Origin: a virus
IMG/VR virus record: IMGVR_UViG_3300044714_000015
Location: 1 to 41,960 of that record
Reading direction: 5' to 3' (one strand)
DNA length: 41,960 bases
The position numbers and the translations under genes are program-made. Below are positions 1-41,960 of this stretch, piece after piece (position 1 is the stretch's first letter; the number at the start of each line of letters is the position of its first letter). The notes beneath the pieces were generated by a model. It saw only the letters and a list, made by a program, of their open reading frames with translations, had not been told where the DNA came from and made no database searches.

Positions 1-127
1 CAAAATGTCAAATGAATCGCGGACCTAAACCCAAGACGGCCAAGAACAAGCCCAGCAAGCCCACAGGGCCATCGCTGGCCGGTCCTCCAGTTCCGACTTG
101 CACCCTGACGCCGATTGCTCAGACGGA
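1..127. repeat. Left copy of 127-bp terminal direct repeat (circular assembly overlap)
   Basis: Bases 1-127 are identical to 41834-41960. A repeat of exactly 127 bp is the usual k-mer overlap left when a circular or circularly permuted molecule is assembled. I read it as an assembly closure overlap rather than a biological terminal repeat. It contains the start of the small terminase gene, so that gene appears twice (complete here, partial at the other end). Confidence 0.93.
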
Positions 128-767: not shown

Positions 768-1084
768 TGAGATATACTGATATAGAAATCAAAAAATTGG
801 AGATACTTCGAGGACGATTAGAGCGGATGATATTCGTCCGGCATGGAATGGGCGATCAAGTCAATATCAGCAAGAAGCAACATTGCATCGTGGAACGCGC
901 TCTAAAGGCATTATATAAATTACGTTTAAAAAAGTCTTTCCATAAGAACTATGTTGAGGATGTTTTCGCCTGCTCTCAAGCTGCTTGGGAACTGGTTCGC
1001 GAATTGGATGCGACTCGTGTTTATGGTGGACGGGACTTTGATCCCACAAGCGACGGCGAAATAAAGCTTTATAGGGCAGCGTGA
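767..1084 (+). CDS. Hypothetical protein, AT-rich insert between terminase genes
   Basis: 105-aa basic, helical protein of unknown function. I recognise no domain. Its base composition is visibly more AT-rich than the flanking terminase genes (runs such as ATATAGAAATCAAAAAATT near the start and TTATATAAATTACG near 910-925), suggesting recent acquisition together with the preceding GIY-YIG-like gene. Its start overlaps the previous stop and its TGA is shared with the GTG start of the large terminase (GTGA at 1081), so it is translationally coupled to both neighbours. Confidence 0.7.
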   Translation: MRYTDIEIKKLEILRGRLERMIFVRHGMGDQVNISKKQHCIVERALKALYKLRLKKSFHKNYVEDVFACSQAAWELVRELDATRVYGGRDFDPTSDGEIKLYRAA

Positions 1085-2781
1085 CAGCACAAGCCACAAC
1101 CCGACGCCCCAAGCTCACTGCCTGGGAGCGAGAGCGCCGCAAGCGTGACAAGTACGATTCCGCGAAGTGGGCGGACGCTCTGCGCAATGCCGGGGACTAC
1201 TCAGGCTACACGTTCTCTCTGGGCCACAACCCCGCCGTCTACTTCATTGATCAGCTCACCCATACCGGCGATTACGCGGCTCAGTCTTTCGAGCTTCAGC
1301 TTTGGCAAGAGGCGATCTTGCGGCTGATGTTCGACCAAGAGGGTCTGAACCGCTATCGTTACGTGTTCATCGGCCTTCCCCGCAAGAATGGCAAGACGGA
1401 GCTTGTCGCGGCCATTGTTCTCTACCTCATGGCCGGCACTGGCATCAGATCGCAAAACATCTACTCCGCCTCGGGGGATGCCGAACAAGCCGCTTTGATC
1501 CATCGCGCGGCGGCGTCGATGGTACACCAGAACGAAAAGCTCAGCGAGGTCTGCAACGTCTACAAGGGTAACGTCAAAAGGATCACACTCGAGCCACTCG
1601 GGTCAGAGTACAAGGCGCTAAGCTCGGATGCAGAGCTTAAGTTTGGTCTACGGCCCTCCGTGAACGTGTTCGACGAAGTACACGTATTCCCCAATCGCGA
1701 CCTACACGCAGCCCTCGAGACAGCTTTCGGAGCAACGAAGCGGCCTTTCACAATCTACATCTCGACGGCCGGCTGGGATCGCACATCACTCTGTTACGAG
1801 CTTTGGGACCGGGCTCGGCATGCAATGCGCGACCCCAAGAGCGATCCTAGGTTCTTGGGCATCCTCTACGAGTTCCATGATGATGAGGACAATTGGCAAG
1901 ACGAGAAGGTTTGGCATCGCATCAATCCCGGCCTCGGGACGTTCTGCAATCTCGACAACTTCCGCCACGACATGGAACACGCGGCGAAGTTTCCCGGCTA
2001 TGAGAATGAATGCAAGCAGTTTTACCTCAATCAGTGGACTGAGCAGCAGGAGCGATGGATCTCTCGGGATGAGTGGCAACAATGCATCGGGCATGTGAAT
2101 CCAGCCGAAATGGTCGGCGAGCCATGTTATGCGGGCTTCGATGGCTCGAAAACCGGGGACATGACGGCGCTTTGGTTGATCTGGCCGACTCCCAAGGGAA
2201 TCAAGTGTGCTGGGCGTTGCTGGGCTCCTCGCGAGGGCAAATGGCGCGACGAGCTTCGCAATAAGGACCGATACGAAAAGTGGAGCAAGCCGGACGCCGA
2301 TGGAGCTGTTTATCTGCACTTAACGAAAGACGACACAGCAGCGACCGGCCTGGATAATGCGATCAACGAAGCGCAGATCGAGCGGGAAATTGTCGAGCTA
2401 AATGAGAAGTTCCCCATGATCTCGCTATTCGCCGATCGGGCCTACTTCCAGCAGATGCTGACCCGGCTCTTCAACGAAGCGGGCATCCCGGTCAAGGCGA
2501 TCCCTCAGACCTGCATGCACCTCAACGAACCGTGCGTGACTCTGGAACGCATGATCTTAGATCGATCCATCGAGCATGGCGGCAATCCGATTCTCGATTG
2601 GAACGTGGCCAATGCGTCCATCGTGCGCAATACGACGGGCCTAATCCATCCCAACAAAACATCAGCAACCGAACGAATCGATGGTCTCGCCGCGCTCTTG
2701 AATGCGCTGGCGGGTTACATCGACGACGAAGCAGATCGTAGTGCGTCCGTTTACGAGCGCCCGGGGATGCTGGCGCTTTAA
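1081..2781 (+). CDS. terL: Phage terminase large subunit (HK97-type, Terminase_1)
   Basis: 566-aa packaging motor that pumps DNA into the prohead by ATP hydrolysis and cuts the concatemer. The Walker A motif is RKNGKT (101-106) and Walker B is VFDEVH with D198-E199, followed by a YISTAG coupling motif near 220. The C-terminal RNase H-like nuclease shows GFDGSKTGD (D354) and FADRAYF (D452) as metal ligands. Length and motif order match Terminase_1. The GTG start at 1081 overlaps the previous TGA. It lies upstream of portal and capsid genes as expected. Confidence 0.95.
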   Translation: MTAQATTRRPKLTAWERERRKRDKYDSAKWADALRNAGDYSGYTFSLGHNPAVYFIDQLTHTGDYAAQSFELQLWQEAILRLMFDQEGLNRYRYVFIGLPRKNGKTELVAAIVLYLMAGTGIRSQNIYSASGDAEQAALIHRAAASMVHQNEKLSEVCNVYKGNVKRITLEPLGSEYKALSSDAELKFGLRPSVNVFDEVHVFPNRDLHAALETAFGATKRPFTIYISTAGWDRTSLCYELWDRARHAMRDPKSDPRFLGILYEFHDDEDNWQDEKVWHRINPGLGTFCNLDNFRHDMEHAAKFPGYENECKQFYLNQWTEQQERWISRDEWQQCIGHVNPAEMVGEPCYAGFDGSKTGDMTALWLIWPTPKGIKCAGRCWAPREGKWRDELRNKDRYEKWSKPDADGAVYLHLTKDDTAATGLDNAINEAQIEREIVELNEKFPMISLFADRAYFQQMLTRLFNEAGIPVKAIPQTCMHLNEPCVTLERMILDRSIEHGGNPILDWNVANASIVRNTTGLIHPNKTSATERIDGLAALLNALAGYIDDEADRSASVYERPGMLAL

Positions 2782-8880: not shown

Positions 8881-9871
8881 CGCTGATCCTGGCTGGTGGC
8901 GCGTCGTCGATCTCACGCCACCAATTCAGGAGCCGGTCTCGATCGCTGAGGCGATGGCCTTTGCGCGCATCGAGTCAACCGACGACAATGCGATTCTCGC
9001 GGACCTGATCAGTCAGGCGCGTGAGTACGTCGAAACCGCCACAGCTAGAACGATCGCCCCCCGGGTCAGACAGGTCTATTTTCAAGGTTTTCTGACCTCG
9101 GGGGGCTACTTCAACCGCTTTATCCGCTCGATCGGGCCGAATCCCTGGTGGCTTCCCACGGCTCAAGGCATCATGCAGGTGCGGCAGCCACCGCTTCAGG
9201 GCATGATGAATATTCAATATGTTGACCCCAGCTCGGGGAACTTGCTGGAGATTTACTCGAATCAGATCATCGTATCGACCGGCACTCCAGGGCGCGTGAT
9301 GCCTCAGTACGGAGCAGTCTGGCCGATCGCGCGACCACAGATCGATGCGGTGGTCTTTACATTCGTCGCGGGTTATGGACTCACGCCACCTTTGGTTCAG
9401 ACTTATGGAGGGCCGCCATCGACAACGATCATGACTTACGGACAGCCAACCGGTGGGACCTTCTCTCTTACCTTCGGTGGCGCGGCAACCTCTTCGATCG
9501 CATACAACGCGACGGCGGCGACAGTGCAAGCGGCTTTGGTAGCACTTGGGACGATTGGTGCAGGGAACGCGACCTGCGTCGGCGGTCCTCTGCCGACTGT
9601 TCCGATCTTTATCCAATGGGCGTCGAGCCTAGCAACCAATTATTATCAGCCGCCGATCACAATCACTCCCAGTCTGACGGGTGATCCCGCGGCGACCATG
9701 TACCTCAATCAACCTCCAGCCATTCCGCGCTCTCTCCGCACGGCCATCATGCAGATCGTGGCTGATAGCTATGAAAATCGCGAGGCGACGTGCGAGGCAA
9801 CTCCGGGGCTTGTCGTCTCACCAGTTGCGGAACGGTCTCTATGTCCTCAAACCTGGGGCGCATATGTCTGA
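8858..9871 (+). CDS. Head-tail connector (gp6-like) with inserted beta domain
   Basis: 337 aa, GTG start. The N-terminal part (LTPPIQEPVSIAEAMAFARI..DDNAILADLISQAREYVE) is the classic HK97 gp6/adaptor start. The C-terminal part (VVFTFVAGYG, then IPRSLRTAIMQIVADSYENRE) is its normal end. These two halves, usually a few residues apart, are separated by about 110 residues containing GGTFSLTFGGAATSSIAYN followed by ATAATVQAALVALGTIGAGN, a beta domain I associate with repeated modules in large environmental surface proteins. Insertion into a neck component would display this domain outside the connector. Family confident; domain role inferred. Confidence 0.85.
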   Translation: MIQGFPSDADPGWWRVVDLTPPIQEPVSIAEAMAFARIESTDDNAILADLISQAREYVETATARTIAPRVRQVYFQGFLTSGGYFNRFIRSIGPNPWWLPTAQGIMQVRQPPLQGMMNIQYVDPSSGNLLEIYSNQIIVSTGTPGRVMPQYGAVWPIARPQIDAVVFTFVAGYGLTPPLVQTYGGPPSTTIMTYGQPTGGTFSLTFGGAATSSIAYNATAATVQAALVALGTIGAGNATCVGGPLPTVPIFIQWASSLATNYYQPPITITPSLTGDPAATMYLNQPPAIPRSLRTAIMQIVADSYENREATCEATPGLVVSPVAERSLCPQTWGAYV

Positions 9872-11405
9872 GATCATCTCCTCTTTTGAAACGGCTCCCA
9901 AGCAAGCCGAAGGTTTCAGCGCCGTCAACTGGCATACGATGCCGCCGCGCAAGCCTTACCGGATATTCCTCGGTATCCCTAATCGCGGTGATATCTCAAG
10001 CGGCTGTTACAACGCTGCGATCGCGGCGTCGCGGCGGCACACGGTCTTCTCGCTTCCCATGCAATTCGGGGACATCGAGCACAATTTCAACATGCTCTTT
10101 TCGGAGGCGTGGAACAATCGGTTCAACCGCAAGCTGACCCACTGGGGCCTGCTCCATACCGACATCTCGGCTGAGGAGTGGTGGCTGGATGTCGCGATCG
10201 AGGAGATGGACCGTGTGGGCGCAGATGTGATGTCGGTGGTCATGGCGATCAAGGACGAGCGGGGCCTTACGACGACGGGCATCCGCTACCCTGGCGTGTG
10301 GGGCACGCGGCGGTTCTCCATGCGAGAGATCAGCCGACTCCCGGAGACGTTCTCGATCGCCGATACCGATGAGCCTGATGCGGTCTTGGCGATCAACACC
10401 GGCCTCTGGGTCTGCCGTTTCCCACAAGCTGGATGGCCGGACAAGTTCGTCGACGGCGGCGGCTTCATCGCAAAGCATGCGATCAGGATCGAGAACGGCA
10501 ACGCCGTCCCGTGGTTTGACTCGGAGGACTGGTTATTCAGCGACTGGGCCGCGACCAACGGCCTCCGGGTGTTCGCGACCCGTAAGATCAAGGCCGTCCA
10601 TCACGGCGGCTTCCCCTACGGCAATCAGGGCTCGTGGGGCTCGTGGGAATCGGAGCGGCAACGGCCACGACGACCGCTTGCAGCGTCAGTCAAGGCGCGG
10701 CCGGCTCCGCAGATTACAATCGAGACGGAGAAGCCGGTTGCGGTGGACAGCCTCGATCACACCATGCCGTTAGGAGCAATCTGTGATAACTCATTATCCT
10801 ATGCGTTCAACCGAAAATTGTTTGGACTTATCCCAGCTCAACTTTGTCGAGTGCTTGATCTTGGATGTTCAGGTGGCGGATTCGTCAGGTCAATCCTTGA
10901 AGCTGGTGGGTTTGCGATCGGCATCGAAGGATCAGATCTATCTCTCAAAACCCGCCGAGCCGAATGGGCAACCATCCCCGATTACCTCTTCACCGCCGAC
11001 GTGACCGCTCCTTTCACGCTCAAGAATTGCACTCCCGAGCCGGTCAAGTTCAATGTGATCACGGGCTGGGAGTTCTTTGAGCACATCTCGGATGATGACC
11101 CATCAGGCTTTACAGATATCGACGTGGTTATCGATAACATTTTATCGCACGCTACGCCGGACGCGATTCTGATTTGCTCGATCTCGGCAAATGAAGAGCC
11201 CCACCATCGAACGGCAAAGCCGAAAGACTGGTGGGTTGACCGCATCGCCAATCGATCAATGGGAACCTGGGATTTTCATCTTGACCATGCTCCCGATCTC
11301 GAAGACTACTTCGGCGAAGACCTCGTGCGCGGCTCACATGAGCCCGGAGCGATCAGTCAATCGGTGGTGTTCCGGTGCGTCAAGCATGAGGCGGCGACGG
11401 TCTAA
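9864..11405 (+). CDS. Bifunctional glycosyltransferase-methyltransferase fusion
   Basis: 513 aa from ATG 9864, which overlaps the previous stop. Residues 1 to about 285 resemble a GT-A glycosyltransferase (RIFLGIPNRGDISSGCYNA opening, VDGGGFIAKHA, and DSEDWLFSDWAATNG acidic motifs). After a linker, residues about 328-345 give VLDLGCSGGGFVRSILEAGG, the SAM-binding motif I of class I methyltransferases, then GIEGSD and ITGWEFFEHI. A nucleotide-sugar transferase fused to an O-methyltransferase would make and cap a glycan. Placement inside the head-neck operon suggests virion glycosylation, but DNA or host-envelope targets are possible. Confidence 0.8.
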   Translation: MSEIISSFETAPKQAEGFSAVNWHTMPPRKPYRIFLGIPNRGDISSGCYNAAIAASRRHTVFSLPMQFGDIEHNFNMLFSEAWNNRFNRKLTHWGLLHTDISAEEWWLDVAIEEMDRVGADVMSVVMAIKDERGLTTTGIRYPGVWGTRRFSMREISRLPETFSIADTDEPDAVLAINTGLWVCRFPQAGWPDKFVDGGGFIAKHAIRIENGNAVPWFDSEDWLFSDWAATNGLRVFATRKIKAVHHGGFPYGNQGSWGSWESERQRPRRPLAASVKARPAPQITIETEKPVAVDSLDHTMPLGAICDNSLSYAFNRKLFGLIPAQLCRVLDLGCSGGGFVRSILEAGGFAIGIEGSDLSLKTRRAEWATIPDYLFTADVTAPFTLKNCTPEPVKFNVITGWEFFEHISDDDPSGFTDIDVVIDNILSHATPDAILICSISANEEPHHRTAKPKDWWVDRIANRSMGTWDFHLDHAPDLEDYFGEDLVRGSHEPGAISQSVVFRCVKHEAATV

Positions 11406-14980: not shown

Positions 14981-15825
14981 TGCAAACGGGATCGCGATGG
15001 GTTCAGAAGCCGATCCGGGGTACGCCGCTTGATCGGACGCATTCGCTTTGCAGTGGGCTTCAGGGCTTCTACGCGCTCAACGAAAACGGCGGCGGCATCC
15101 TTTGGGATGCGACAGGCAATCTCCGATTATCGTCGAACGGTTACGGCTCCAATTCTCCGTGGTCGTCTGCGGCAATGTCTGGCATCGTGTCAATTGCCAA
15201 CATGGAATGTTTTACCGCCGCGCTGCCAGCTTGGCTCCAGTTTCCGTGGCCGATGTCAATGGCAGTGGGATTTCATAATATAGGCGTAGCAACATACTAT
15301 TCTGCAATGATGTCGATCAGCTACAGCTCAACGATCACAGCCCCATATGACGCGCTGACGCTTGGAAAGGACTCTAACAGCAATTCGGCGCGGATTGCGA
15401 CCAACAACGCTGGGAGCCAATATACTGCCGACGTCGGAACATTTGTAAATGGGAAAGATTATGTATTTAGCACTTCTCAGGGGCCGACGACACAGAATAC
15501 CTACATCAATGGTGTGAGTGTTTTGGCCACAACAAACTCTAACGGCAATCCGACGTTTGGCACGCCTCAGTTAATAATCGGTTCGGCGCTTCCTGTCGGA
15601 ACGAACAATTTTTCCAATACGTTAGTTTACTGGGGCGCCTGGTGGAATCGCGCCCTGTCGGCTGCCGAGCACGCGCTCTTGGGCTCGAACGTGAACGCGA
15701 TCTGGCAGATCTTCCGGCCAATGGTGGGGATTGGCACGCTTGCAGGTGCTCAGGGCAGCGCGCCGCCAAGTACGACCTATCAGCCTTGGATCTATGGTGA
15801 TCAGATACAGGAGCAGTACGGATAA
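14980..15825 (+). CDS. LamG/concanavalin-like tail fibre protein
   Basis: 281 aa from ATG 14980 (TGATG overlap). The sequence follows a laminin-G-like lectin sandwich: GLQGFYALNENGGGILWDATGN at the start, a central beta region with NGKDYVFST and YINGVSV, and the closing YWGAWWNRALSAAEHALL helix typical of LamG_3 domains, then a C-terminal tail. Such domains bind glycans and are common in phage receptor-binding proteins. Together with neighbouring fibre genes it probably forms side fibres or a baseplate adhesin. Confidence 0.75.
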   Translation: MQTGSRWVQKPIRGTPLDRTHSLCSGLQGFYALNENGGGILWDATGNLRLSSNGYGSNSPWSSAAMSGIVSIANMECFTAALPAWLQFPWPMSMAVGFHNIGVATYYSAMMSISYSSTITAPYDALTLGKDSNSNSARIATNNAGSQYTADVGTFVNGKDYVFSTSQGPTTQNTYINGVSVLATTNSNGNPTFGTPQLIIGSALPVGTNNFSNTLVYWGAWWNRALSAAEHALLGSNVNAIWQIFRPMVGIGTLAGAQGSAPPSTTYQPWIYGDQIQEQYG

Positions 15826-17351
15826 TGGCTGACAACGTACAGCTCAACCAAAATAACACCAATGGCGCGATCGTCCGCACGGTCTCCGATTCCAACGGAA
15901 CCGAGTGGCCGGTTGCCGTCCTGACGTGGGCCACGAATGTCACACCGGGCTCGGGCGCGTTTAGCTTCGTCAATTCGTCTCAGGGCCTTCCTGTCGCCCA
16001 GCAAGGTTCATGGAACATCGTCAATACGAACCTCGTGAACAGCGTCACGACGGTTGCCACGCTAACAACCATCACGAATCCGGTGGGTGTCACAGGCACA
16101 TTCTGGCAAGCCACGCAGCCGGTATCCGGGACATTCTGGCAAACGACACAGCCAGTCTCGATCGCCGGCACGATCAACAGCAATACGAATGCCTCGATTG
16201 TCGGCATAGTTCCAGTCAATGCGACCCAGATCACGAGCCCGTGGGTGGTCAGCGGGACGGTGCAGGCCAACGCGGGGACGAACCTCAACACGTCGGCACT
16301 GGCGCTCGATACCAGCATCAACGGCCTTCTGATTGCTCAGGGGCACACAAGCATCGGCCAGTCTGGACCGATGGTCCAGGGCATGGCCACGACGAATGCG
16401 CCGGGTTACACGACGGCTCAGGTTAGTCCGCTCAGCCTTGATACCTCGGGCAATCTCCGCGTGAACGTGATGGCCGGCGGAGGGACTGGCGGCACATCAT
16501 CGAGCTTCAATGGCGCTTGGCCTGCTACGGGGACGGCGATCGGGGCTCTCAGCAGCAACGGCGTGGACATGGTCGGGCTGCACGTCGACAGCTCAGGCAA
16601 TCTCAATGTCAATGTGGCGGCAGGCGGTGGATCGGGTGGGACGTCCTCCAGTTTCAACGGCGCGTGGCCAGGAACCGGAACGGCTATCGGCGCCATCAGC
16701 TCCAATGGCGTCGATATGGTCGGCTTGCACGTTGACGCCAGCGGCAATCTGCTGACCAACGGCGCCGGGGCCACGCAACCGATCTCAGGCACCGTGGCCG
16801 TCAATACGCTCAACGTCGTCAACACGGTGACGACGATCACGAATCCGGTCGCCGTCAACGCGACTCAGATCACATCGCCCTGGGTCATCTCGGGAAATAT
16901 CACCAACGCGAACCTGGTCAACACCGTCACGGCCCTCACGGCGATCACCAATGCGCTTCCAGCGGGGACGAACCTTCTTGGCCAGATCAGTGCAAGCGCC
17001 GAGACGAACACGCTCTACTCGGGCACGACGGCACTTGTGCCGGCATTCGCGGCCTTCACCATCAATGCGAACACGACGCTCACGGTTGTCGCTGGCACGA
17101 CCGGCAAGTACATCCGCGTGCTCCGCTGGAGTGCCTCATTCAATGGCAACTCGAATATCTACTGGCAAAGCAATACGAACACCGTGCAGATCAGCGGCAC
17201 GCACTACGGGACTCAATTCGCGACGGCCGGCGGGGCCTGGTCTCCGGTGGGCATTTTCCAGACGGCGGCGACGGGGGATAGCCTCCAGCTTGTGAGCAGC
17301 GTGAACACCAACGGCATCGTTTCCGGCGAGTTGACCTACGTCAAGCTGTGA
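15825..17351 (+). CDS. Large repetitive tail fibre-like protein
   Basis: 508 aa. Contains short repeats TFWQATQPVSG / TFWQTTQPVS near residue 100, a pattern common in phage fibre or decoration proteins, and two nearly identical units of about 52 residues (GTSSSFNGAWP-(A/G)-TGTAIGA-x-SSNGVDMVGL near 225-255 and 280-310). Many TTITNPV and ITSPW-type repeats add a fibrous beta structure. Asn and Thr are abundant. Starts in a TAATGG overlap, ends in GTGA. A receptor-binding or side fibre is most likely. Confidence 0.7.
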   Translation: MADNVQLNQNNTNGAIVRTVSDSNGTEWPVAVLTWATNVTPGSGAFSFVNSSQGLPVAQQGSWNIVNTNLVNSVTTVATLTTITNPVGVTGTFWQATQPVSGTFWQTTQPVSIAGTINSNTNASIVGIVPVNATQITSPWVVSGTVQANAGTNLNTSALALDTSINGLLIAQGHTSIGQSGPMVQGMATTNAPGYTTAQVSPLSLDTSGNLRVNVMAGGGTGGTSSSFNGAWPATGTAIGALSSNGVDMVGLHVDSSGNLNVNVAAGGGSGGTSSSFNGAWPGTGTAIGAISSNGVDMVGLHVDASGNLLTNGAGATQPISGTVAVNTLNVVNTVTTITNPVAVNATQITSPWVISGNITNANLVNTVTALTAITNALPAGTNLLGQISASAETNTLYSGTTALVPAFAAFTINANTTLTVVAGTTGKYIRVLRWSASFNGNSNIYWQSNTNTVQISGTHYGTQFATAGGAWSPVGIFQTAATGDSLQLVSSVNTNGIVSGELTYVKL

Positions 17352-22733: not shown

Positions 22734-23046
22734 AAGCGTTGGAGTAGGGGGCGTTGCCGACTCCGCTGGCGGGAATCCACTCGATCACGTCCCCATGCCC
22801 ATCGATACGGGCGCCGACAGGCACTACGGGGGCGCCAGGGCCTCCGCTGGCGACAAACGGCGGCGCGCTCCCTGGGTGGTACTGATCGCCGCTTGACAGG
22901 ATTGGAGATCCATCAGCGCGATTACTGCCGAATTGCGGCCGGGCATTAAAGCTGGCGCGACCGTTGAGCGGTGGGCTGGAGGTCACGGCCCCGGGGCCAA
23001 AGCACTGGCTACAAAACGAAGCGGCGAGAACAAGTGTGGCCAACAT
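22651..23046 (-). CDS. Small secreted protein, leftward
   Basis: 131 aa. The N-terminus MLATLVLAASFCSQCFG is a short signal-peptide or lipoprotein-like leader, followed by a Gly/Pro/Ser-rich region and VVPVGARIDGHGDVIEWIP. An AGGAG sits 6 nt before the ATG. It is the only leftward gene between two rightward tail genes and its 3' end overlaps the Cys-rich domain by 83 bp. Could be a moron (independent lysogeny- or host-modifying gene). Unknown function. Confidence 0.5.
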   Translation of the reverse strand: MLATLVLAASFCSQCFGPGAVTSSPPLNGRASFNARPQFGSNRADGSPILSSGDQYHPGSAPPFVASGGPGAPVVPVGARIDGHGDVIEWIPASGVGNAPYSNAFRLRNSPLRNMSRAANVMTAMRRAALL

Positions 23047-25140: not shown

Positions 25141-25472
25141 GGATTGGGCTCCTGATGTGCTGGCCGAATGCGATGGGGGTGAATGGCCCGGTTGATTCGC
25201 TCGCGAAGATTGCGGCAAAAGACCTGGACTTCCGGCTCACACCAGCCTGACGTCTCGACCTCAAAAATCTGGCGCTCGAAGCTTGCAAGCTCATCCCGCA
25301 ATTGCGGGCCGGGCTGCTCGTTGGCCCAGTCCTTGACGACCATCCGGTGGTGCTTGAGTCTGGCGATTTTGGCATCGATAGTCTGCTCGTGGCTTAACAG
25401 CTCCGACGGCGTCGTGTAGGAACGGGGAGGGACAGGTTCACGAGAGGGCGGGTCTCTAAACTGTTCGCTCAT
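25137..25472 (-). CDS. Hypothetical helical early protein
   Basis: 111 aa. Proline-rich N-terminus and a long charged helical region (LLSHEQTIDAKIARLKHHRMVVKDWANEQ...LRDELASFERQIFEVE) suggesting a coiled coil. GGAG precedes the ATG. The 5' end overlaps the methyltransferase 3' end by 17 bases. Unknown function. Confidence 0.65.
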   Translation of the reverse strand: MSEQFRDPPSREPVPPRSYTTPSELLSHEQTIDAKIARLKHHRMVVKDWANEQPGPQLRDELASFERQIFEVETSGWCEPEVQVFCRNLRERINRAIHPHRIRPAHQEPNP

Positions 25473-26214
25473 GTTCGCACTCCATTATCCTTCGTCCGAT
25501 CCATTCGGCGACCTGGGGGACGACGGCGTTGCCACAGGCTCCAATTCGGTCCATCCAATCGGGAAACTCATCAGCCACTCGCATATCCGGGGAGTGAGGA
25601 TGAATCCCATACTTGCTAAGAGCAATTGCAATCTGCCTTTCCCCCGCCCATCGGGTCTTTGTCCGGCCTTGGCCAGGCTGGAAAATTTGAATCTCTGGCC
25701 TTTCATGCCTCCATCTGCTTTTCTTGGGGTAGGCAACAATGAACACCCGCTGTCGTGTATGTGGTGCACCCAAGGCGCACGCTGATAAACTTGTCCATTC
25801 TGCATCCATCCCGAGTGAGGCCAAGTCTGCGAGAACTGTTCCCATTCCCCGTTTAAGCAGCGCTGAGACGTTCTCCACGAGCATAAATCTTGGTTGAATC
25901 TCGCGAATGATTCTTTTGTACTCCGACCATAGACCACTCCGTTGTCCAGTGAGGCCCTCTTTGTTTCCAGCATCGCTGATATCCTGGCAAGGGAAGCCCC
26001 CACAGATGAGATCGACTCCCCAGTCTCCCTCTGCCGGTGGGAAGGTTCGCACGTCGTCCCATCGTCTGACATCGGGCCAGTGCTTGGCCAAAACTCGAGT
26101 TGCATAGGGGTCAATCTCCACCTGCCATTTGCAAGTCATGCCCGCTCTTTCGAGCCCAAGGTCAAAGCCGCCTATCCCCGCGAAGAGAGAGCCGAAAGTG
26201 AATTCCTCACCCAC
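25456..26214 (-). CDS. C5-cytosine DNA methyltransferase
   Basis: 252 aa from GTG 26214 (GAAGG upstream, overlapping the previous stop). Motif I FGSLFAGIGGFDLGLERAG, motif IV GGFPCQDIS with catalytic C76, motif VI ENV (114-116), motif VIII QRVFIVA, motif X GNAVVPQVAEWIG. All catalytic motifs are present; the target-recognition region between VIII and X is short (about 60 residues), so specificity is probably a short site. No partner endonuclease is visible, so this is an orphan phage methyltransferase, most likely protecting phage DNA from restriction. GTG 26274 would add 20 residues. Confidence 0.92.
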   Translation of the reverse strand: MGEEFTFGSLFAGIGGFDLGLERAGMTCKWQVEIDPYATRVLAKHWPDVRRWDDVRTFPPAEGDWGVDLICGGFPCQDISDAGNKEGLTGQRSGLWSEYKRIIREIQPRFMLVENVSALLKRGMGTVLADLASLGMDAEWTSLSACALGAPHTRQRVFIVAYPKKSRWRHERPEIQIFQPGQGRTKTRWAGERQIAIALSKYGIHPHSPDMRVADEFPDWMDRIGACGNAVVPQVAEWIGRRIMECEHERTV

Positions 26215-26419
26215 GGGTGGCCTTCTTTCTTCGCTTAGGGGCCACGAGGGCGCGGAGGCGGTTCCAGGCGGCACAAGAGTCGCACCTGGAATCAGAATCG
26301 CTCCAATAGCCTAGCCTCCCGTGATAATGTGTCGGATCGCCAGTGTCGGCGGCGTACGAATTTAGCACATTCCTCACAGCCCGCTTGAGCGCGGCGTTCT
26401 CGCGTTGCAGGTCAGTCAT
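26207..26419 (-). CDS. Small coiled-coil protein with CxxC
   Basis: 70 aa from ATG 26419, chosen over GTG 26425 because AAGGAG is 8 nt from the ATG but only 2 nt from the GTG. LQRENAALKRAVRNVLNSY is a short leucine-zipper-like helix; RCDSCAAWNRLRALV has a C-x2-C pair. Unknown function, upstream of and overlapping the methyltransferase. Confidence 0.65.
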   Translation of the reverse strand: MTDLQRENAALKRAVRNVLNSYAADTGDPTHYHGRLGYWSDSDSRCDSCAAWNRLRALVAPKRRKKATRG

Positions 26420-29510: not shown

Positions 29511-30065
29511 TCAAGCCTCCGCGAATTCCAATCCGTCGAAAAGGCTCATTAAATTCCGGTCTTGTTTGTCGTTCTCGATCACGTCGTGGCATCTCCGGCA
29601 GACCACGATCACGTCGGTAAATCTCTCGGAACCTAGTCGAGCATAAGTACGATGATGATGGTCGAGCGGCCTGGATTCGGCGTTGCAAATCGAGCAGCGA
29701 TGCTCCCAAAAGTCTAGCCAGCAATGCTTCGCTTTCGACGCCGCCCATTGGGGAGATTTCAGATAATCCAAATAATGATCAGGCGGTTTCGTGCGTTTCT
29801 GCTTCGACCCGATCGGGCTTCCTTTGCCAGTTCTCTTGTCGCCCCGGAGCCGCTTGCGGATATTGTTAAACCAGTGACGATACAAGTTGATCGAATACGA
29901 GCGATGCTCGACAGGCAACCGCGGGATGATTAGCCTAATATCATCATCCTCCCATGTTTCTGGGTTAAAATTGTTGCCAAACGACTTGGAAAACTCATGG
30001 TAAAGCTCATTCATGAGAACATTCGGGATCGGATTCTTTGGCCGCCTCAAACCATTAGTTCCCAT
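29511..30065 (-). CDS. HNH endonuclease
   Basis: 184 aa. N-terminal 100 residues are unusual, with a WEDDDIRLIIPRLPVEHRSYSINLYRHWFNNIRKRL region; then RCSICNAESRPLDHHHRTYARLGSERFTDVIVVCRRCHD, a standard zinc-stabilised HNH core (C-x2-C, DHHH, C-x2-C). Could be a homing endonuclease or a phage recombination nuclease. It overlaps the Mom-like gene by 19 nt. Confidence 0.8.
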   Translation of the reverse strand: MGTNGLRRPKNPIPNVLMNELYHEFSKSFGNNFNPETWEDDDIRLIIPRLPVEHRSYSINLYRHWFNNIRKRLRGDKRTGKGSPIGSKQKRTKPPDHYLDYLKSPQWAASKAKHCWLDFWEHRCSICNAESRPLDHHHRTYARLGSERFTDVIVVCRRCHDVIENDKQDRNLMSLFDGLEFAEA

Positions 30066-30619
30066 CGCTGTTTCCTTGAAGTTGTTTGCAGGGGTCCGGT
30101 CGACCTCTCGTGTGATCCTGTAAACCGCTGGGGACGAGCCGCGACGATCTCGCCAACAGGTTTCCAGCCGGAAGCCTTGTAGATCGTTCCTTGGTGGACG
30201 TCGACCGCGAGATAACTCACTAGGCGGGTTATCTCAGGCGTCGATCTTTTGATAGCCTTTCGCATCACAGAAAGCATACGTGAAGCCGTGAATCGCGGAG
30301 CCGCACTGCAAATTGCTAGGCGTCGAAGTTCGAGCGTTGAACCATCATCAATCGCTCGGATAATCGGCTGAGACCAGATTGCAACCGCGTACCATTGGCC
30401 ATCGAATCCGGCTGCGAAACAGGCCGTCATGTTGCCACAGAGAATGTTCCCAAGATCTGTTCTGGGAAGCATTGAGTGCCACTGGCGATTAAGCTCGCAA
30501 GCGAGCCGGGCTCCAATCGGCTCGATTAAAAGCTGGAGCGCCGAGGTCGGAATTGCACCGCCCCTGTCCTCTTGGAAAAGAGGGTATGCCGCTACAGCAT
30601 CTTCGGCGCGAGAATCCAT
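30047..30619 (-). CDS. GNAT-fold acyltransferase, Mom-like DNA modification candidate
   Basis: 190 aa. The core AVAIWSQPIIRAI...LELRRLAICSAAPRFTASRMLSVMRKAIKR and LVSYLAVDVHQGTIYKASGWKPVG matches a GNAT-like phage family that I recall being annotated as Mom-type adenine modification proteins (RRLAI-x-x-x-AP-x-x-TASRML...HxGTIYKAxGW). Mom makes phage DNA resistant to many restriction enzymes. Strong GGAGGGGA ribosome-binding site follows a long hairpin (30634-30686) just after the upstream zinc-ribbon gene, an arrangement reminiscent of com-mom of Mu. The enzymatic product is not proven. Confidence 0.68.
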   Translation of the reverse strand: MDSRAEDAVAAYPLFQEDRGGAIPTSALQLLIEPIGARLACELNRQWHSMLPRTDLGNILCGNMTACFAAGFDGQWYAVAIWSQPIIRAIDDGSTLELRRLAICSAAPRFTASRMLSVMRKAIKRSTPEITRLVSYLAVDVHQGTIYKASGWKPVGEIVAARPQRFTGSHERSTGPLQTTSRKQRWELMV

Positions 30620-35484: not shown

Positions 35485-35534
35485 TCTTTGGACTTGCTTG
35501 GATCTTCAATCTGATCTTGGAGCACGCATTTTGA
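35334..35534 (+). CDS. Nested small membrane protein in another frame
   Basis: 66 aa from ATG 35334, reading in a different frame from the regulator gene over 150 nt. The C-terminus is one clear transmembrane helix (VAAIVAIFVLIFGLAWIFNLIL). Support comes from its TGA (35532-35534), which overlaps a TTG start of the next gene in TTGA, the same type of junction as other pairs in this genome. Start uncertain. Could be a lysis or membrane-effector protein. Confidence 0.45.
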   Translation: MRTLQGTSARSAGDAEARSQIAGACQAVIDSEREASRGEQVAAIVAIFVLIFGLAWIFNLILEHAF

Positions 35535-36238
35535 CCCTCCCAGCCGTTTGCGACGTGGTCTACGAAGCGACAACCTCGATACCTGGCTTCTACGGCCTGA
35601 GCGGTCTCCAAGCAATCGTTGAAGCGCTGCAAGAGCAGATCGACCGCGACTTCTATCCGATCTACGGCCATCGGTGGGACCTTTCGATTCAGCCGAAGGT
35701 TCGGGCGGGCAACGCTGGGATGATCTGGCTCGACAACAGCGATCAGGCCGATGCTTTGGCGTATCACGACGTCACAGCCGACGGGCTGCCGATGAGCAAG
35801 ATTTTCGTGCTCACCACGTTGAAGGCCGGCGATGATCCGAGCGTTTCTGCATCGCACGAGAACCTCGAGGCGCTGCTCGACCCGGATATCAGCCAGGTCT
35901 TCACCAACGCGCAGACCAACCAGATCGGCGCGTTCGAGGATTGCGACGCGGTAGAGGACACGGACTATCTGATCGGCCAGGTCAAGGTCAGTAACTTTGT
36001 ACTGCCCGCATGGTTTGGGATCTTGAACCCGCCGGCAATTCCACAGTCCAGGTTTGATTTTATGGGCTTGTGTGGCAAGCCCTATCAGCTCTTGAGTGGC
36101 GGATACATGAGCTACCAGGACAGCGATGGCAACTGGACGCAGGTGTTCGCATCGGTTCGCGGAGCTGGCAAGTTCACCTCAGCTCTGCACCCGCGAGCGC
36201 TGATGCGCGAATCAGGTTTTAAGCGGAGGTCGGGCTAG
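35531..36238 (+). CDS. Putative HExxE zinc metallopeptidase
   Basis: 235 aa from TTG 35531 (TTGA overlap). The sequence VSASHENLEALLDPDI has H109-E110-x-x-E113, followed by EDCDAVEDTDYLIGQVKVSNFVLPAWF and a late LLSGGYMSY. I recall phage and bacterial proteins with a (S/A)SHE-x-LE-x-(L/V)-DP...CDxVE...SxFVxPAWF pattern, a putative peptidase family with no clear name. Metal peptidase activity is inferred. TTG 35498 is an alternative start that would add 11 residues. Located among secreted and membrane proteins, so it may act in lysis or envelope breach. Confidence 0.55.
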   Translation: MTLPAVCDVVYEATTSIPGFYGLSGLQAIVEALQEQIDRDFYPIYGHRWDLSIQPKVRAGNAGMIWLDNSDQADALAYHDVTADGLPMSKIFVLTTLKAGDDPSVSASHENLEALLDPDISQVFTNAQTNQIGAFEDCDAVEDTDYLIGQVKVSNFVLPAWFGILNPPAIPQSRFDFMGLCGKPYQLLSGGYMSYQDSDGNWTQVFASVRGAGKFTSALHPRALMRESGFKRRSG

Positions 36239-36241
36239 GCC

Positions 36242-37468
36242 ATGAACGGACTCCTCCTCGCAACGCTCTTGGTCGGCCAGTGCCCTCCGGGCCAGTCGTG
36301 CCCGGTGCCGCAGGGGTTTTTCTCGCGGATGCTCGCGCCGGCTCCGCAGATTCATTATTCTGACCGCTTCCCCGAACACGTTTACGCCGAGCCCGCAGCT
36401 CTTCGCATGGCCGGATCGACCCTGAAGCCTGGATATCAACGGCAGTGCGTTCAAGTCGCTAACCGCCGCGGCAACTTTACCGACTTCGGATCGGGAACGA
36501 TCGTGGCCAGCGATGGGCGCTCAGCTCTCGTGATCACGAATGCCCATGTATTCGAGGACGGTGTCGGGCGAGTAACAGTCGAACAGCTTAGCGGCTCAAA
36601 GTACGCAGGTCGATTCCTTGGCCGGGCCAGCGATGCAGATCTGGCTGGCGTGGAGATCGCGGCACCGGAGGGAATTGTGACGATCGCTCTTGCAACCCAG
36701 CAACCGCAGCGGGCCTACATGCTAGGCTTCGGTCGCAATCAGACCCTTCACAGTCACGGGGCGAATCTCAGAAGGGGCGGGGGCCAGGATGACGCAGAAT
36801 ATGATGAGCCAATCCATGAGGGTGACAGTGGATCAGGCGTATTCGATCGATATGGCCAATTGGCTGGGGTTGCGTGGGGAACTGGATCAAAGGGAGCTCG
36901 GGTGTGCAGTCTTGTTAGTGTGGCTAAGGTCCGTGACTTTTTCTACTCCCCGACTTGTTTCCGCTGGTTTCGTCGCCCAGGTCCCCAAGGCCCAGTAGGA
37001 CCGCAAGGCCCTCCCGGCCCGCCAGGGCCAGCGGTGATTGCCCCGGTCACTCCAGTCTACGTCGCACCAGTGATCCCTGTCGCGCCAGTGATCACGCCCA
37101 CGCCGGCACCGATCGCGATTCCGGGACCTCCAGGGCCTCCGGGGCAGGATGGCCAGCCAGGCGCGCCAGGACCTCCGGGACCGCCTGGTCAAGCGATGCA
37201 AGGCCCAGCCGGGCCTCCCGGTCCCCCGGGACAGGTCACGACACTTCCCCACGCTCCGCTCGTCGTGCGCGTCAAGAAAAACGGGCAGGTCGTGGCCTCG
37301 AAGATTTACCGGCCCGAGCAGACGTCGTTGACCGATTCGAGTGGGGCCACGATCAACGAGCCGGCTTATGTGATGACTCTTGAACCGGACACGCTTCTCC
37401 ATCCTTCGCCAGCGCAAGCGGCGGCACAGCGGCAAACACCCCCACCACCTCCAATCCCCAGACAGTAG
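36242..37468 (+). CDS. Secreted trypsin-like serine protease with collagen-like repeats
   Basis: 408 aa. N-terminal [14 protein letters not shown] is a short signal-like leader. Catalytic triad pattern: H102 (ITNAHVF), D133 (DADLAGVEI), S196 (EGDSGSGVF), a trypsin/HtrA-like fold. From about 246 to 263 and 294 to 335 there are Gly-x-y collagen-like repeats ([35 protein letters not shown]), separated by a Pro/Val-rich linker, then a C-terminal beta domain. A trimeric collagen stalk carrying a protease is highly unusual in a phage. It may be a virion- or cell-surface enzyme. Confidence 0.8.
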
Positions 37469-37901: not shown

Positions 37902-38435
37902 GTGTATCCTTCTGTTGATCATATTGTCGAGTGCTTCAGATATGAGGATGGCCGGTTGTTCTGGCTGACTCGGCCTCGATCGCATTTCGCGAACGACCAG
38001 GCATGGAAGTGTTGGAACACAAAGCACGCCGGCAAGGAAGCGGGATACCTGTCTCGCTACGGCCAGCGAACACGATGGGTTATCACGATCAACGGCATTG
38101 AGCTTTACCGTCATCTCGTCGTGTGGGCCTGGCACCAAGGGGAATGGAAGTTCGGCATCGATCACAAGGATCGCGACAAGAGCAACGATCGGATCGAGAA
38201 TCTTCGCACAGCGACCGCAAGTCAGAACAACGCGAATACGACTCGATACGCCAATAACACGTCGGGCATCAAGGGCGTGTCTTGGCACAAGCGCCAACAG
38301 AAATGGATCGCTCGAATCATGGTTAAAGGCAGAGCGATTCAGATCGGCAGTTTCGATGAGGCGACCAACGCTCAGGAAGCCTATATTCAAGCCGCGATAC
38401 AGCACTTCGGCGAGTTTGCTTGCGCCGGCTCCTAA
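37902..38435 (+). CDS. Free-standing HNH homing endonuclease with AP2-like domain
   Basis: 177 aa, GTG start. HNH_3-type core VWAWHQGEWKFGIDHKDRDKSNDRIENLR with TASQNNANT, followed by TSGIKGVSWHKRQQKWIARIMVKGRAIQIGSF and DEATNAQEAY, the AP2/ERF-like DNA-binding module typical of phage homing endonucleases. It is a self-mobile gene inserted between two small genes with no intron evident. One base separates it from the gene before it. Confidence 0.88.
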   Translation: MYPSVDHIVECFRYEDGRLFWLTRPRSHFANDQAWKCWNTKHAGKEAGYLSRYGQRTRWVITINGIELYRHLVVWAWHQGEWKFGIDHKDRDKSNDRIENLRTATASQNNANTTRYANNTSGIKGVSWHKRQQKWIARIMVKGRAIQIGSFDEATNAQEAYIQAAIQHFGEFACAGS

Positions 38436-40013: not shown

Positions 40014-40087
40014 CTCGGGGTGGAGCAGATGGTTAGCTCGCCAGGCTCATAATCTGGAGGTCGCTGGTTCGAATCCAGCCCCCGGGC
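40014..40087 (+). tRNA. tRNA-Met (CAU), initiator-like
   Basis: Acceptor CTCGGGG (40014-40020) with CCCCGGG (40080-40086); D stem GAGC/GCTC; anticodon arm CCAGG-CTCATAA-TCTGG with CAT at 40048-40050; T arm GCTGG-TTCGAAT-CCAGC. U8 is present. The D arm (GTGGAGCAG...GCTCG) and the A11:U24 pair match bacterial initiator tRNA-fMet rather than elongator Met. Departures: pair 1:72 is C-G instead of the C·A mismatch, the anticodon-stem G-C triplet is replaced by A-T, G-C and G-U, the discriminator is C, and CCA is not encoded. Could be an altered initiator tRNA or a decaying copy. Confidence 0.85.
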
Positions 40088-40147
40088 CTCATGAACGACT
40101 GGGACGAATGGCCTCAATTTCAACCTCGTAAAACGGAGACGATAGCA

Positions 40148-40626: not shown

Positions 40627-40905
40627 ATGACTGGCCTACCTCACAACGGCTGGGAGTTCCTGGGGTTCCTGGCTCTGCTTGGGCTCATGGCCTATCAGAC
40701 CTGGATGCAACACCAGCAGGGCCACAAGATGAATTTGCTTGAGCACCACATGAATGCCATGAGAGACGCGCAAGTGAAAGGGGCTTACGCCCAGGGCGGC
40801 ATGGACGAACAGGAACGATCCAGAAGCGACATCAAGTCCCCGCTTGAACATCGCGTTGGGCAAGATCCGATGGAGCGGCTGGAAGAGATCAGGGGGCAGG
40901 AATGA
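40627..40905 (+). CDS. Membrane-anchored helical protein, holin-cassette candidate
   Basis: 92 aa. N-terminal transmembrane helix (WEFLGFLALLGLMAYQTW) followed by a long charged helix (HKMNLLEHHMNAMRDAQV). ATGA overlap with the following two-helix membrane protein. The pair resembles lysis modules with a holin plus a small membrane partner. Confidence 0.6.
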   Translation: MTGLPHNGWEFLGFLALLGLMAYQTWMQHQQGHKMNLLEHHMNAMRDAQVKGAYAQGGMDEQERSRSDIKSPLEHRVGQDPMERLEEIRGQE

Positions 40906-41120
40906 TCAGCATCAGCGGCGCAGTCACGATCATCGTCTACCTGATCATCGGCGGCGTGATCTTCGCGCTCCTGCGCTGGCTGATCAACAGCTCTCCGATC
41001 GACCCGAAGTTCAAAGAGATCGCGAACTGGGTCTTGATTGTCTTGGCGGTGCTGGTGCTGATTGGAGTGCTGCTCAACTTTGCGGGGATTGGCGGCGGGG
41101 GAGCGATATTCAGGCCATGA
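40902..41120 (+). CDS. Two-helix membrane protein, holin candidate
   Basis: 72 aa with two transmembrane helices: TIIVYLIIGGVIFALLRWLI and ANWVLIVLAVLVLIGVLLNF, joined by a short polar loop, N- and C-termini on the same side. This is the layout of small class II holins and of a widespread phage membrane protein family of unknown role. Coupled by ATGA at both ends. Confidence 0.6.
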   Translation: MISISGAVTIIVYLIIGGVIFALLRWLINSSPIDPKFKEIANWVLIVLAVLVLIGVLLNFAGIGGGGAIFRP

Positions 41121-41386
41121 GCTACGACGGCGAGCGCGGGATTTTGACGCGGCGGATTGAGGAGCTTGAGAAAGAGAATCGGGAACTCAAGCAGCAAGGA
41201 ATGACCCGTTCCAAGCCCTACATCAACGCCGATCATCCGCTCTATGAGGAGCCTGAGCCGATCACACTTCATGCTCTGTTAGCGCAGGCTCAATCGCTGG
41301 GGATGAAAATGGAATTGATATTCCGCACTACCAAGGAAGAGGAAGAGGAAGAGGAGCAGGCTGATAAGCCTAAAGGATGCCTGTAA
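41117..41386 (+). CDS. Coiled-coil acidic protein
   Basis: 89 aa from ATG 41117 (ATGA overlap). RRIEELEKENRELKQQG is a short coiled coil; an EEEEEEE run lies near the C-terminus. No domain. Overlaps the HNH start by 10 bases. Confidence 0.55.
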   Translation: MSYDGERGILTRRIEELEKENRELKQQGMTRSKPYINADHPLYEEPEPITLHALLAQAQSLGMKMELIFRTTKEEEEEEEQADKPKGCL

Positions 41387-41703
41387 GCGTACCTACCCAT
41401 CGCCCTGCATGGCTGCCTACCAAGCAACAGAGGGACAAGGCGTACAACAGGCACCAGCGCAATGAGGAGTCGACGCGCTTCTACCATGCTAAGGCATGGT
41501 TGGTCCTTCGTGAGATACAGCTTACCGATGAGCCCTATTGCGAGCGCTGCATAGAGTGGGGCCTGCATACACCGGCCACTATGGTGCACCACAAGATAGA
41601 GATAACAGAGAAGCCTGAGAGCGCGTTGGATCAGGGTAATCTGATGAGTCTATGCAGGGGATGTCATAGTAGGATACATGCATGTAGTTCAATGGGTGCA
41701 TAG
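41377..41703 (+). CDS. HNH endonuclease adjacent to small terminase
   Basis: 108 aa. KAWLVLREIQLTDEPYCERCIEWGLHTPATMVHHKIEITEKPESALDQGNLMSLCRGCHSRIH, read in pieces, is a typical HNH nuclease (C-x2-C, VHH, N, C-x2-C-H). Closing the circle puts it about 140 bp upstream of the small terminase, where HK97-like phages carry an HNH protein that works with the terminase in cos cleavage and packaging. Codon choice looks different from its neighbours (AGG, ATA and GAG-rich), hinting at later acquisition. Confidence 0.88.
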   Translation: MPVSVPTHRPAWLPTKQQRDKAYNRHQRNEESTRFYHAKAWLVLREIQLTDEPYCERCIEWGLHTPATMVHHKIEITEKPESALDQGNLMSLCRGCHSRIHACSSMGA

Positions 41704-41833: not shown

Positions 41834-41960
41834 CAAAATGTCAAATGAATCGCGGACCTAAACCCAAGACGGCCAAGAACAAGCCCAGCAAGCCCACAGG
41901 GCCATCGCTGGCCGGTCCTCCAGTTCCGACTTGCACCCTGACGCCGATTGCTCAGACGGA
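41834..41960. repeat. Right copy of 127-bp terminal repeat
   Basis: Identical to bases 1-127. It holds a second, incomplete copy of the small terminase start (ATG at 41845). Should be removed when circularising the sequence. Confidence 0.93.

Follow-up and report, generated by a model that had tools for sequence, protein, structure and literature searches.

A collagen-tailed phage protease and the recurring, largely undescribed family to which its sequence assigns it

Results

The protease gene lies near the start of a rightward gene block in a phage genome

The stretch of DNA analysed here, referred to as the window, is the whole 41,960-nucleotide IMG/VR virus record IMGVR_UViG_3300044714_000015. 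An exact direct repeat of 127 nt is present at both of its ends, and it encodes a terminase, a portal, a major head protein and tail-type genes. It is probably a complete phage genome, either terminally redundant or circularly assembled. Its rightward genes begin at about 34.9 kb and continue across the end of the record as far as about 22 kb; genes for replication and DNA modification are found in a leftward block at about 22.6-34.6 kb. The protease gene studied here sits near the start of the rightward block and encodes 408 amino acids (ATG at 36242, stop codon ending at 37468). A Shine-Dalgarno-like GGAGG is found about 12 nt 5′ of the ATG. The gene shares one frame with the gene upstream, from which it is separated by TAG GCC alone, the TAG lying two codons before the ATG. 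The features of the genome that are needed below are:

1..127, + strand: terminal direct repeat, copy 1, identical to 41834-41960
1081..2781, + strand: terminase large subunit (phrog_9, E=1.4e-126), on the strand of the protease and, across the circular junction, about 5.4 kb downstream of it
35498..36238, + strand: upstream neighbour of 246 aa, a conserved bacterial protein with a SHE(N/L)LE.L.DPD motif
36242..37468, + strand: protease gene (leader, chymotrypsin-fold protease, collagen-like runs, small beta C-terminal part)
40627..40905, + strand: small protein of 92 aa with one hydrophobic segment, in the same rightward cassette
40902..41120, + strand: small hydrophobic membrane protein of 72 aa, holin-like by type only, with weak PHROG matches only
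41377..41703, + strand: HNH endonuclease gene, just before the terminase genes
41834..41960, + strand: terminal direct repeat, copy 2

An earlier note, made from the letters of the window alone, had described a protease with collagen-like repeats at this locus. Our analysis confirms it: the coordinates were exact and the Trypsin_2 and Collagen matches both exceed their Pfam cut-offs. The product of the upstream neighbour carries the SHENLEALLDPD motif, is 42% identical to a Caballeronia plasmid-encoded protein and found no match in Pfam or PHROG; calling it a metallohydrolase is only a guess. Its relatives are found on Caballeronia, Streptomyces and Rhizobium plasmids. For the 92-aa protein the PHROG search gave no assignment.

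A search with the capsid protein recovered close relatives of the window, whose contigs end before the right-hand cassette; Trypsin_2 is absent from the records searched for these relatives, as far as they extend. Alignment of the capsid against genome contigs revealed no prophage.

The active site is intact and the fold is that of chymotrypsin-like proteases

The Trypsin_2 profile (PF13365) matches residues 83-210 with 50.7 bits (cut-off 27.6, E=4.2e-13). The features of this part of the protein are:

36446..36976, + strand: Trypsin_2/chymotrypsin-fold domain, about residues 69-245 (PF13365, AlphaFold2 confidence, Foldseek matches to DegP/DegS)
36545..36547, + strand: catalytic His102, codon CAT (TNAH102V), invariant in 12/12
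36638..36640, + strand: catalytic Asp133, codon GAT (SDAD133LA), invariant in 12/12
36827..36829, + strand: catalytic Ser196, codon AGT (GDSGSGVF), invariant in 12/12

The complete His-Asp-Ser triad that had been read from the sequence is thus intact as H102/D133/S196, at positions that suit a chymotrypsin fold, and is invariant in the alignment of 12 family members. The note had named a non-functional active site in homologues as grounds for refutation, and the site is intact across all aligned homologues. Structure prediction, which it had suggested as a check, returned a confident barrel: AlphaFold2, run with the 12-member family alignment, gave a pLDDT of about 92-95 in blocks of residues 71-140; the leader, part of the linker and the C terminus were modelled with low confidence. 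Foldseek matched the model to the protease domains of DegP and DegS (E of about 1e-12 to 1e-11, probability 1.00), and the predicted structure is a double beta-barrel. Among the matches in the viral Foldseek library are trypsin-like peptidases of Caudovirales, numerous proteases of RNA viruses and a Mimivirus LCMiAC02 protein with collagen repeats. The last of these (A0A4D5XEW7 in BFVD) is a strong fold match and possibly an independent combination of protease and collagen. Trypsin-like peptidases of uncultured Caudovirales (for example, A0A6J5NXY4), which were compared by fold alone, have already been annotated, and the enzyme class is therefore not new.

The term 'trypsin-like' holds for the fold of the protein only. 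By motif spacing, Pro190 lies six residues before Ser196, where trypsin has the S1-pocket Asp, so trypsin (Arg/Lys) specificity is not expected and the protein was not classed as a trypsin proper. Nor was it classed as a prohead protease: the window contains a separate Peptidase_S78 match, and capsid maturation hence does not need the collagen-tailed protease.

Collagen-like runs and a candidate trimerisation cap follow the protease domain

The C-terminal part of the protein contains 18 Gly-X-Y triplets in three uninterrupted runs (6, 8 and 4 triplets). These occupy two regions, as in the initial description of two Gly-Pro-Pro blocks, which is corrected here to three runs. The Collagen profile (PF01391) matches residues 295-331 with 30.8 bits against a cut-off of 27.2.

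36980..37033, + strand: collagen-like run 1, six Gly-X-Y triplets, residues 247-264
37124..37195, + strand: collagen-like run 2, eight triplets, residues 295-318 (best PF01391 stretch 295-331)
37202..37237, + strand: collagen-like run 3, four triplets, residues 321-332
37253..37381, + strand: C-terminal beta-strand element, residues 338-380, candidate trimerisation cap (low-confidence model)

The eight-triplet run was never matched in 20,000 shuffles of the C-terminal part. All four synonymous codons are used for Gly and all four for Pro, and no tandem DNA repeat was called in the collagen part. Taken together, these results indicate that the repeat is kept at the protein level and not at the DNA level. 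A second collagen-like stretch, suggested at 22810, faces an ORF on the opposite strand and was discarded.

In the C-terminal part the AlphaFold2 model, which is of the monomer, has strands with low confidence at residues 340-346, 349-364 and 370-379, and the short C termini that follow the collagen in three related proteins (L080, L053 and L096) look similar by eye. The GPP-rich runs and this modelled beta element would probably trimerise the protein into a short protease on a stalk. EHEC prophages encode collagen-like side-tail proteins that form trimers and have a C-terminal trimerisation domain (PMC3368898), and the window protein resembles them in having a Gly-X-Y stalk within a phage protein and a C-terminal element that may trimerise. 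It differs from them in its enzymatic head domain, its leader and its location outside the tail module. By analogy, its stalk may work as theirs does.

The leader of the window protease is weak and those of its relatives are clearer

Leaders and membrane segments were assigned here by hydrophobicity and inspection. In the window protease this yields:

36242..36280, + strand: short hydrophobic N-terminal leader, residues 1-13 (hydropathy)

The short secretion leader noted initially is present, in that the segment is short and moderately hydrophobic; it has no positive charge and is weak taken alone. It is followed by a QC....CP-type motif that also comes after the leaders in L094 and L102, and the leaders of the relatives are clearer by eye. 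Because the window copy's own leader is weak, the case for export leans mostly on those relatives, whose sequences suggest that the window protease is probably exported.

The protease belongs to a recurring family in several phage genomes

No close relatives of the protease were found in single-protein scans of viral and genome contigs. These scans rely on exact 8-residue words and hence overlook distant kin; the family was recovered with looser motif patterns. A degenerate DNA pattern for VITNAHV was found in 52 stretches of IMG/VR, including those of two different trypsin-plus-collagen proteins (L080 and L053, the latter identical to L069 across the ORF). A second pattern, for GVFxxxGxLxGVxWG, was found in 17 stretches and contributed about ten new members. 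The search for homologues in environmental phages that the note had advised thus yielded, from both scans together, about a dozen additional viral contigs that encode a related protease, most of them fragments; the scans sample the family by motif and are not a census. The architectures found are:

Leader, protease, collagen: the window, L080, L096 and L094 (L094 with a later hydrophobic segment)
Metallopeptidase-like domain, protease, collagen: L053/L069
Leader, thioredoxin, protease, hydrophobic anchor: L093, L095, L100 and L101 (viral contigs)
Leader, protease, hydrophobic anchor: L102 and L103
Leader, protease, other tail: L099; L097 is a fragment

The collagen matches of L080 and L053 fall just under the Pfam cut-off, and the metallopeptidase-like domain of L053/L069 matches PF13485 weakly, below its cut-off. 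The fusion of this domain to a protease-collagen protein is distinct from the separate upstream gene of the window. Four motif matches (L002, L098, L105 and L106) were discarded as chance matches, and L035, L044 and L104 as other trypsin-like proteins with very long branches.

In the tree, the thioredoxin-type members form one group with L102 and L103, and the deep branches do not separate. The family is set apart from viral HtrA proteins with moderate support. The nearest relative of the window protease, L099 (40% identity over 163 columns), is without collagen. Since collagen is patchy on the tree and absent from this closest relative, tails appear to have been swapped or lost.

Among reference phages, tblastn of the protease against INPHARED gave no match at 1e-5, and four partial matches with 24-36% identity when E was allowed up to 1; L080 gave no match either. 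With the thioredoxin-type L095, the matches were mainly to separate thioredoxins and HtrA-type proteases, and plasmid matches to the window protease were mostly ordinary HtrA/Do-type or trypsin-like peptidases. Two PHROG families match the protease domain of the window protein and of L080, namely phrog_11383 (unknown function) and phrog_9683 (protease; weakly to the window), and the description of neither includes the protease-collagen architecture. In the open literature, of which our coverage is incomplete, we found neither the fusion nor the family, its swapped tails or its neighbourhood described. By sequence, the collagen-tailed protease is one of a family of phage proteases that recurs and is largely undescribed, and the presence of this family in several phage genomes that are not related to each other is well supported by the comparisons above and below. 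The fusion had been called unusual, and so it is; it is not isolated, as it recurs across a family.

The protease gene lies upstream of the terminase in different phages

In six genomes in which a large terminase was identified (the window, G016, G021, G022, G023 and G024), the terminase gene lies downstream of the protease and on the same strand. The terminases are of different types (phrog_9 in the window, phrog_15 in G016, phrog_38 in G021, G023 and G024, and one similar to the window's in G022), and the protease gene is therefore common to several phage lineages. G022 also encodes a protease-collagen protein, and its terminase, its portal and the gene that precedes its capsid gene resemble those of the window. 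The contig of the nearest relative L099, G026, has the 72-aa membrane protein and the HNH gene in common with the window, in the same order.

A gene for a C92-like protein (permuted papain-like amidase, Peptidase_C92) lies immediately upstream of the protease, or almost so, in G021, G022, G023, G027 and G029, and a few genes away in G030. One of these proteins exceeds the Pfam cut-off and three match weakly; a profile of six members also recovers genes near the protease in G017/L069 and L101. The same profile search did not find the gene in the window, G016, G024 or G026, so the pairing with an amidase characterizes only part of the family. A small membrane-protein gene is found just downstream of the protease in G021, G023, G029, G030 and L101. 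The window itself has a different upstream gene (35498-36238), and small hydrophobic proteins only further downstream of the protease.

The pair of C92-type amidase and protease genes recurs at L112:2193-4928, L124:1481-3671, L123:3088-5291 and L117:2956-5662, and the small membrane protein downstream of the pair is conserved in several phages. G030, the 78,709-base contig of L118, L119, L120 and L121, carries a family member and a terminal repeat of 119 nt; it is probably complete.

Possible roles of the protease

The reading that we tentatively favour, at somewhat less than even confidence, is that of an exported, stalked serine protease that would cleave host envelope or surface proteins late in infection. 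The leader would take the protein through the inner membrane. Trimerised by the GPP-rich runs and the C-terminal beta element, it would form a short stalked protease, which would then cut envelope or surface proteins of the host, acting as an accessory enzyme of lysis and release. We infer the export of the window copy, its trimerisation, timing and substrate, as well as a role in lysis, the last from gene order. A secreted enzyme acting on the host surface had been one of the two options raised at the outset, and it fits the leaders, C-terminal anchors and gene neighbours of the family.

As in phage lysis cassettes (endolysin, holin, spanin), we find a compact group upstream of the terminase, with a hydrolase and small membrane proteins. 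However, serine proteases do not count among the recognised standard components of such cassettes, and the small membrane proteins near the protease are candidate holins by type only. A recognised endolysin was found neither among the 66 window ORFs scanned with Pfam (25 of 30 families listed) nor in the PHROG searches. This suggests, as weak evidence given that an unfamiliar endolysin could be missed, that the protease may take on part of the lysis task.

In a broader version, uncultured phages would widely possess an undescribed lysis or release module. In this module an exported serine protease (collagen-stalked, helix-anchored, or fused to a thioredoxin or a metallopeptidase-like domain), often with a C92-type amidase, would dismantle a protein-rich host envelope; we regard this extension as speculative and rather unlikely. 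A planctomycete or similar host is a guess. Planctomycetes do possess peptidoglycan (PMC4432640), a report which weakens a planctomycete protein wall as the substrate.

A different possibility is that the exported protease changes the infected cell at its surface or in its periplasm, for instance by removing a receptor (superinfection exclusion) or by processing secreted proteins, as a host-surface or lysogeny gene and not in lysis. The C-terminal anchors and thioredoxin fusions of relatives would suit a resident periplasmic enzyme, members appear to swap tails and keep the protease, and it occurs in phages of different terminase types. Yet the position of the gene, near the start of a rightward late-side block and upstream of a same-strand terminase in six genomes, suits late expression, and no integrase is among the Pfam and PHROG families listed for the window, which thus give no sign of lysogeny. 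We consider this explanation unlikely.

The other option raised at the outset, a virion-attached protease, would have the enzyme bound to the tail by its collagen stalk and digesting host surface proteins at adsorption. Collagen-like domains are indeed established in phage side-tail proteins (PMC3368898), and PHROG tail-fibre profiles match the C-terminal half of the protein. However, these matches fall within residues 246-353, the significant ones being confined to the low-complexity Gly-X-Y stretch 246-333, and the gene lies at 36 kb, outside the tail module (tail-type genes at about 12-22 kb); the protein was accordingly not classed as a tail fibre. Virion components do not usually carry an export leader, and in many relatives a C-terminal anchor takes the place of collagen, which is also absent from the nearest relative. 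Gene position, leader and the anchors of relatives make this the weaker of the two original options, and an improbable one.

It is more doubtful still that the protein is a chaperone-protease of the HtrA/DegP type, serving envelope quality control during the production of virions or membrane proteins. The best sequence and structure matches are to proteases of the HtrA family, and other viral contigs in the pattern scan encode HtrA-like proteins. The window family is like the Trypsin_2/S1-fold peptidases (PF13365; HtrA/DegP/DegS) in fold, triad order and motif spacing, and differs from HtrA/DegP/DegS in its signature, G[DQ]SG[SG][GP]VF...GxLxGVxWG, and in its additional leader and collagen, thioredoxin or hydrophobic-anchor modules. 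The window protein has no PDZ domain in Pfam, scores far under every NCBIfam HtrA/Deg cut-off and reads GDSGSG where HtrA has GNSGGP; with the separation in the tree, this led us to reject membership in HtrA/DegP. Finally, a host gene carried by chance or an assembly chimera, the refuting case named in the earlier note, would agree with a metagenomic virus record that lacks a close relative in the collections searched, but is hardly credible given the exact terminal repeat, the tight packing with phage genes on all sides and the related genes at the same relative place in other phage contigs.

Phage lysis has been described almost wholly through holins, peptidoglycan hydrolases and spanins. 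An accessory role in lysis and release would add to these, as recurrent, exported-looking proteases near packaging genes in uncultured phages of unrelated lineages, with swappable stalk, anchor and redox modules, suggest that the breakage of envelope proteins is part of the phage programme for some hosts. The family provides a short list of genes open to expression and testing and a marker for locating hosts; it might also yield new stalked proteases and short GPP-rich collagens.

Other genes of the window

An HNH-AP2 homing-type endonuclease gene (37902-38435) lies near the protease and may help to mobilise neighbouring genes, and a tRNA-Met (CAT) gene (40014-40088) lies between the protease cassette and the terminase genes. 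The window also encodes a Mom-like DNA modification protein (30047-30619) and a C5 cytosine methylase (25456-26274), which suggest that the phage DNA is modified. Inside the structural gene block, a 574-aa ORF (9681-11405) contains a Methyltransf_23 domain. Furthermore, a 147-nt direct repeat with 73% identity (16440-16733) is found within a 508-aa ORF (15825-17351) that has no PHROG match.
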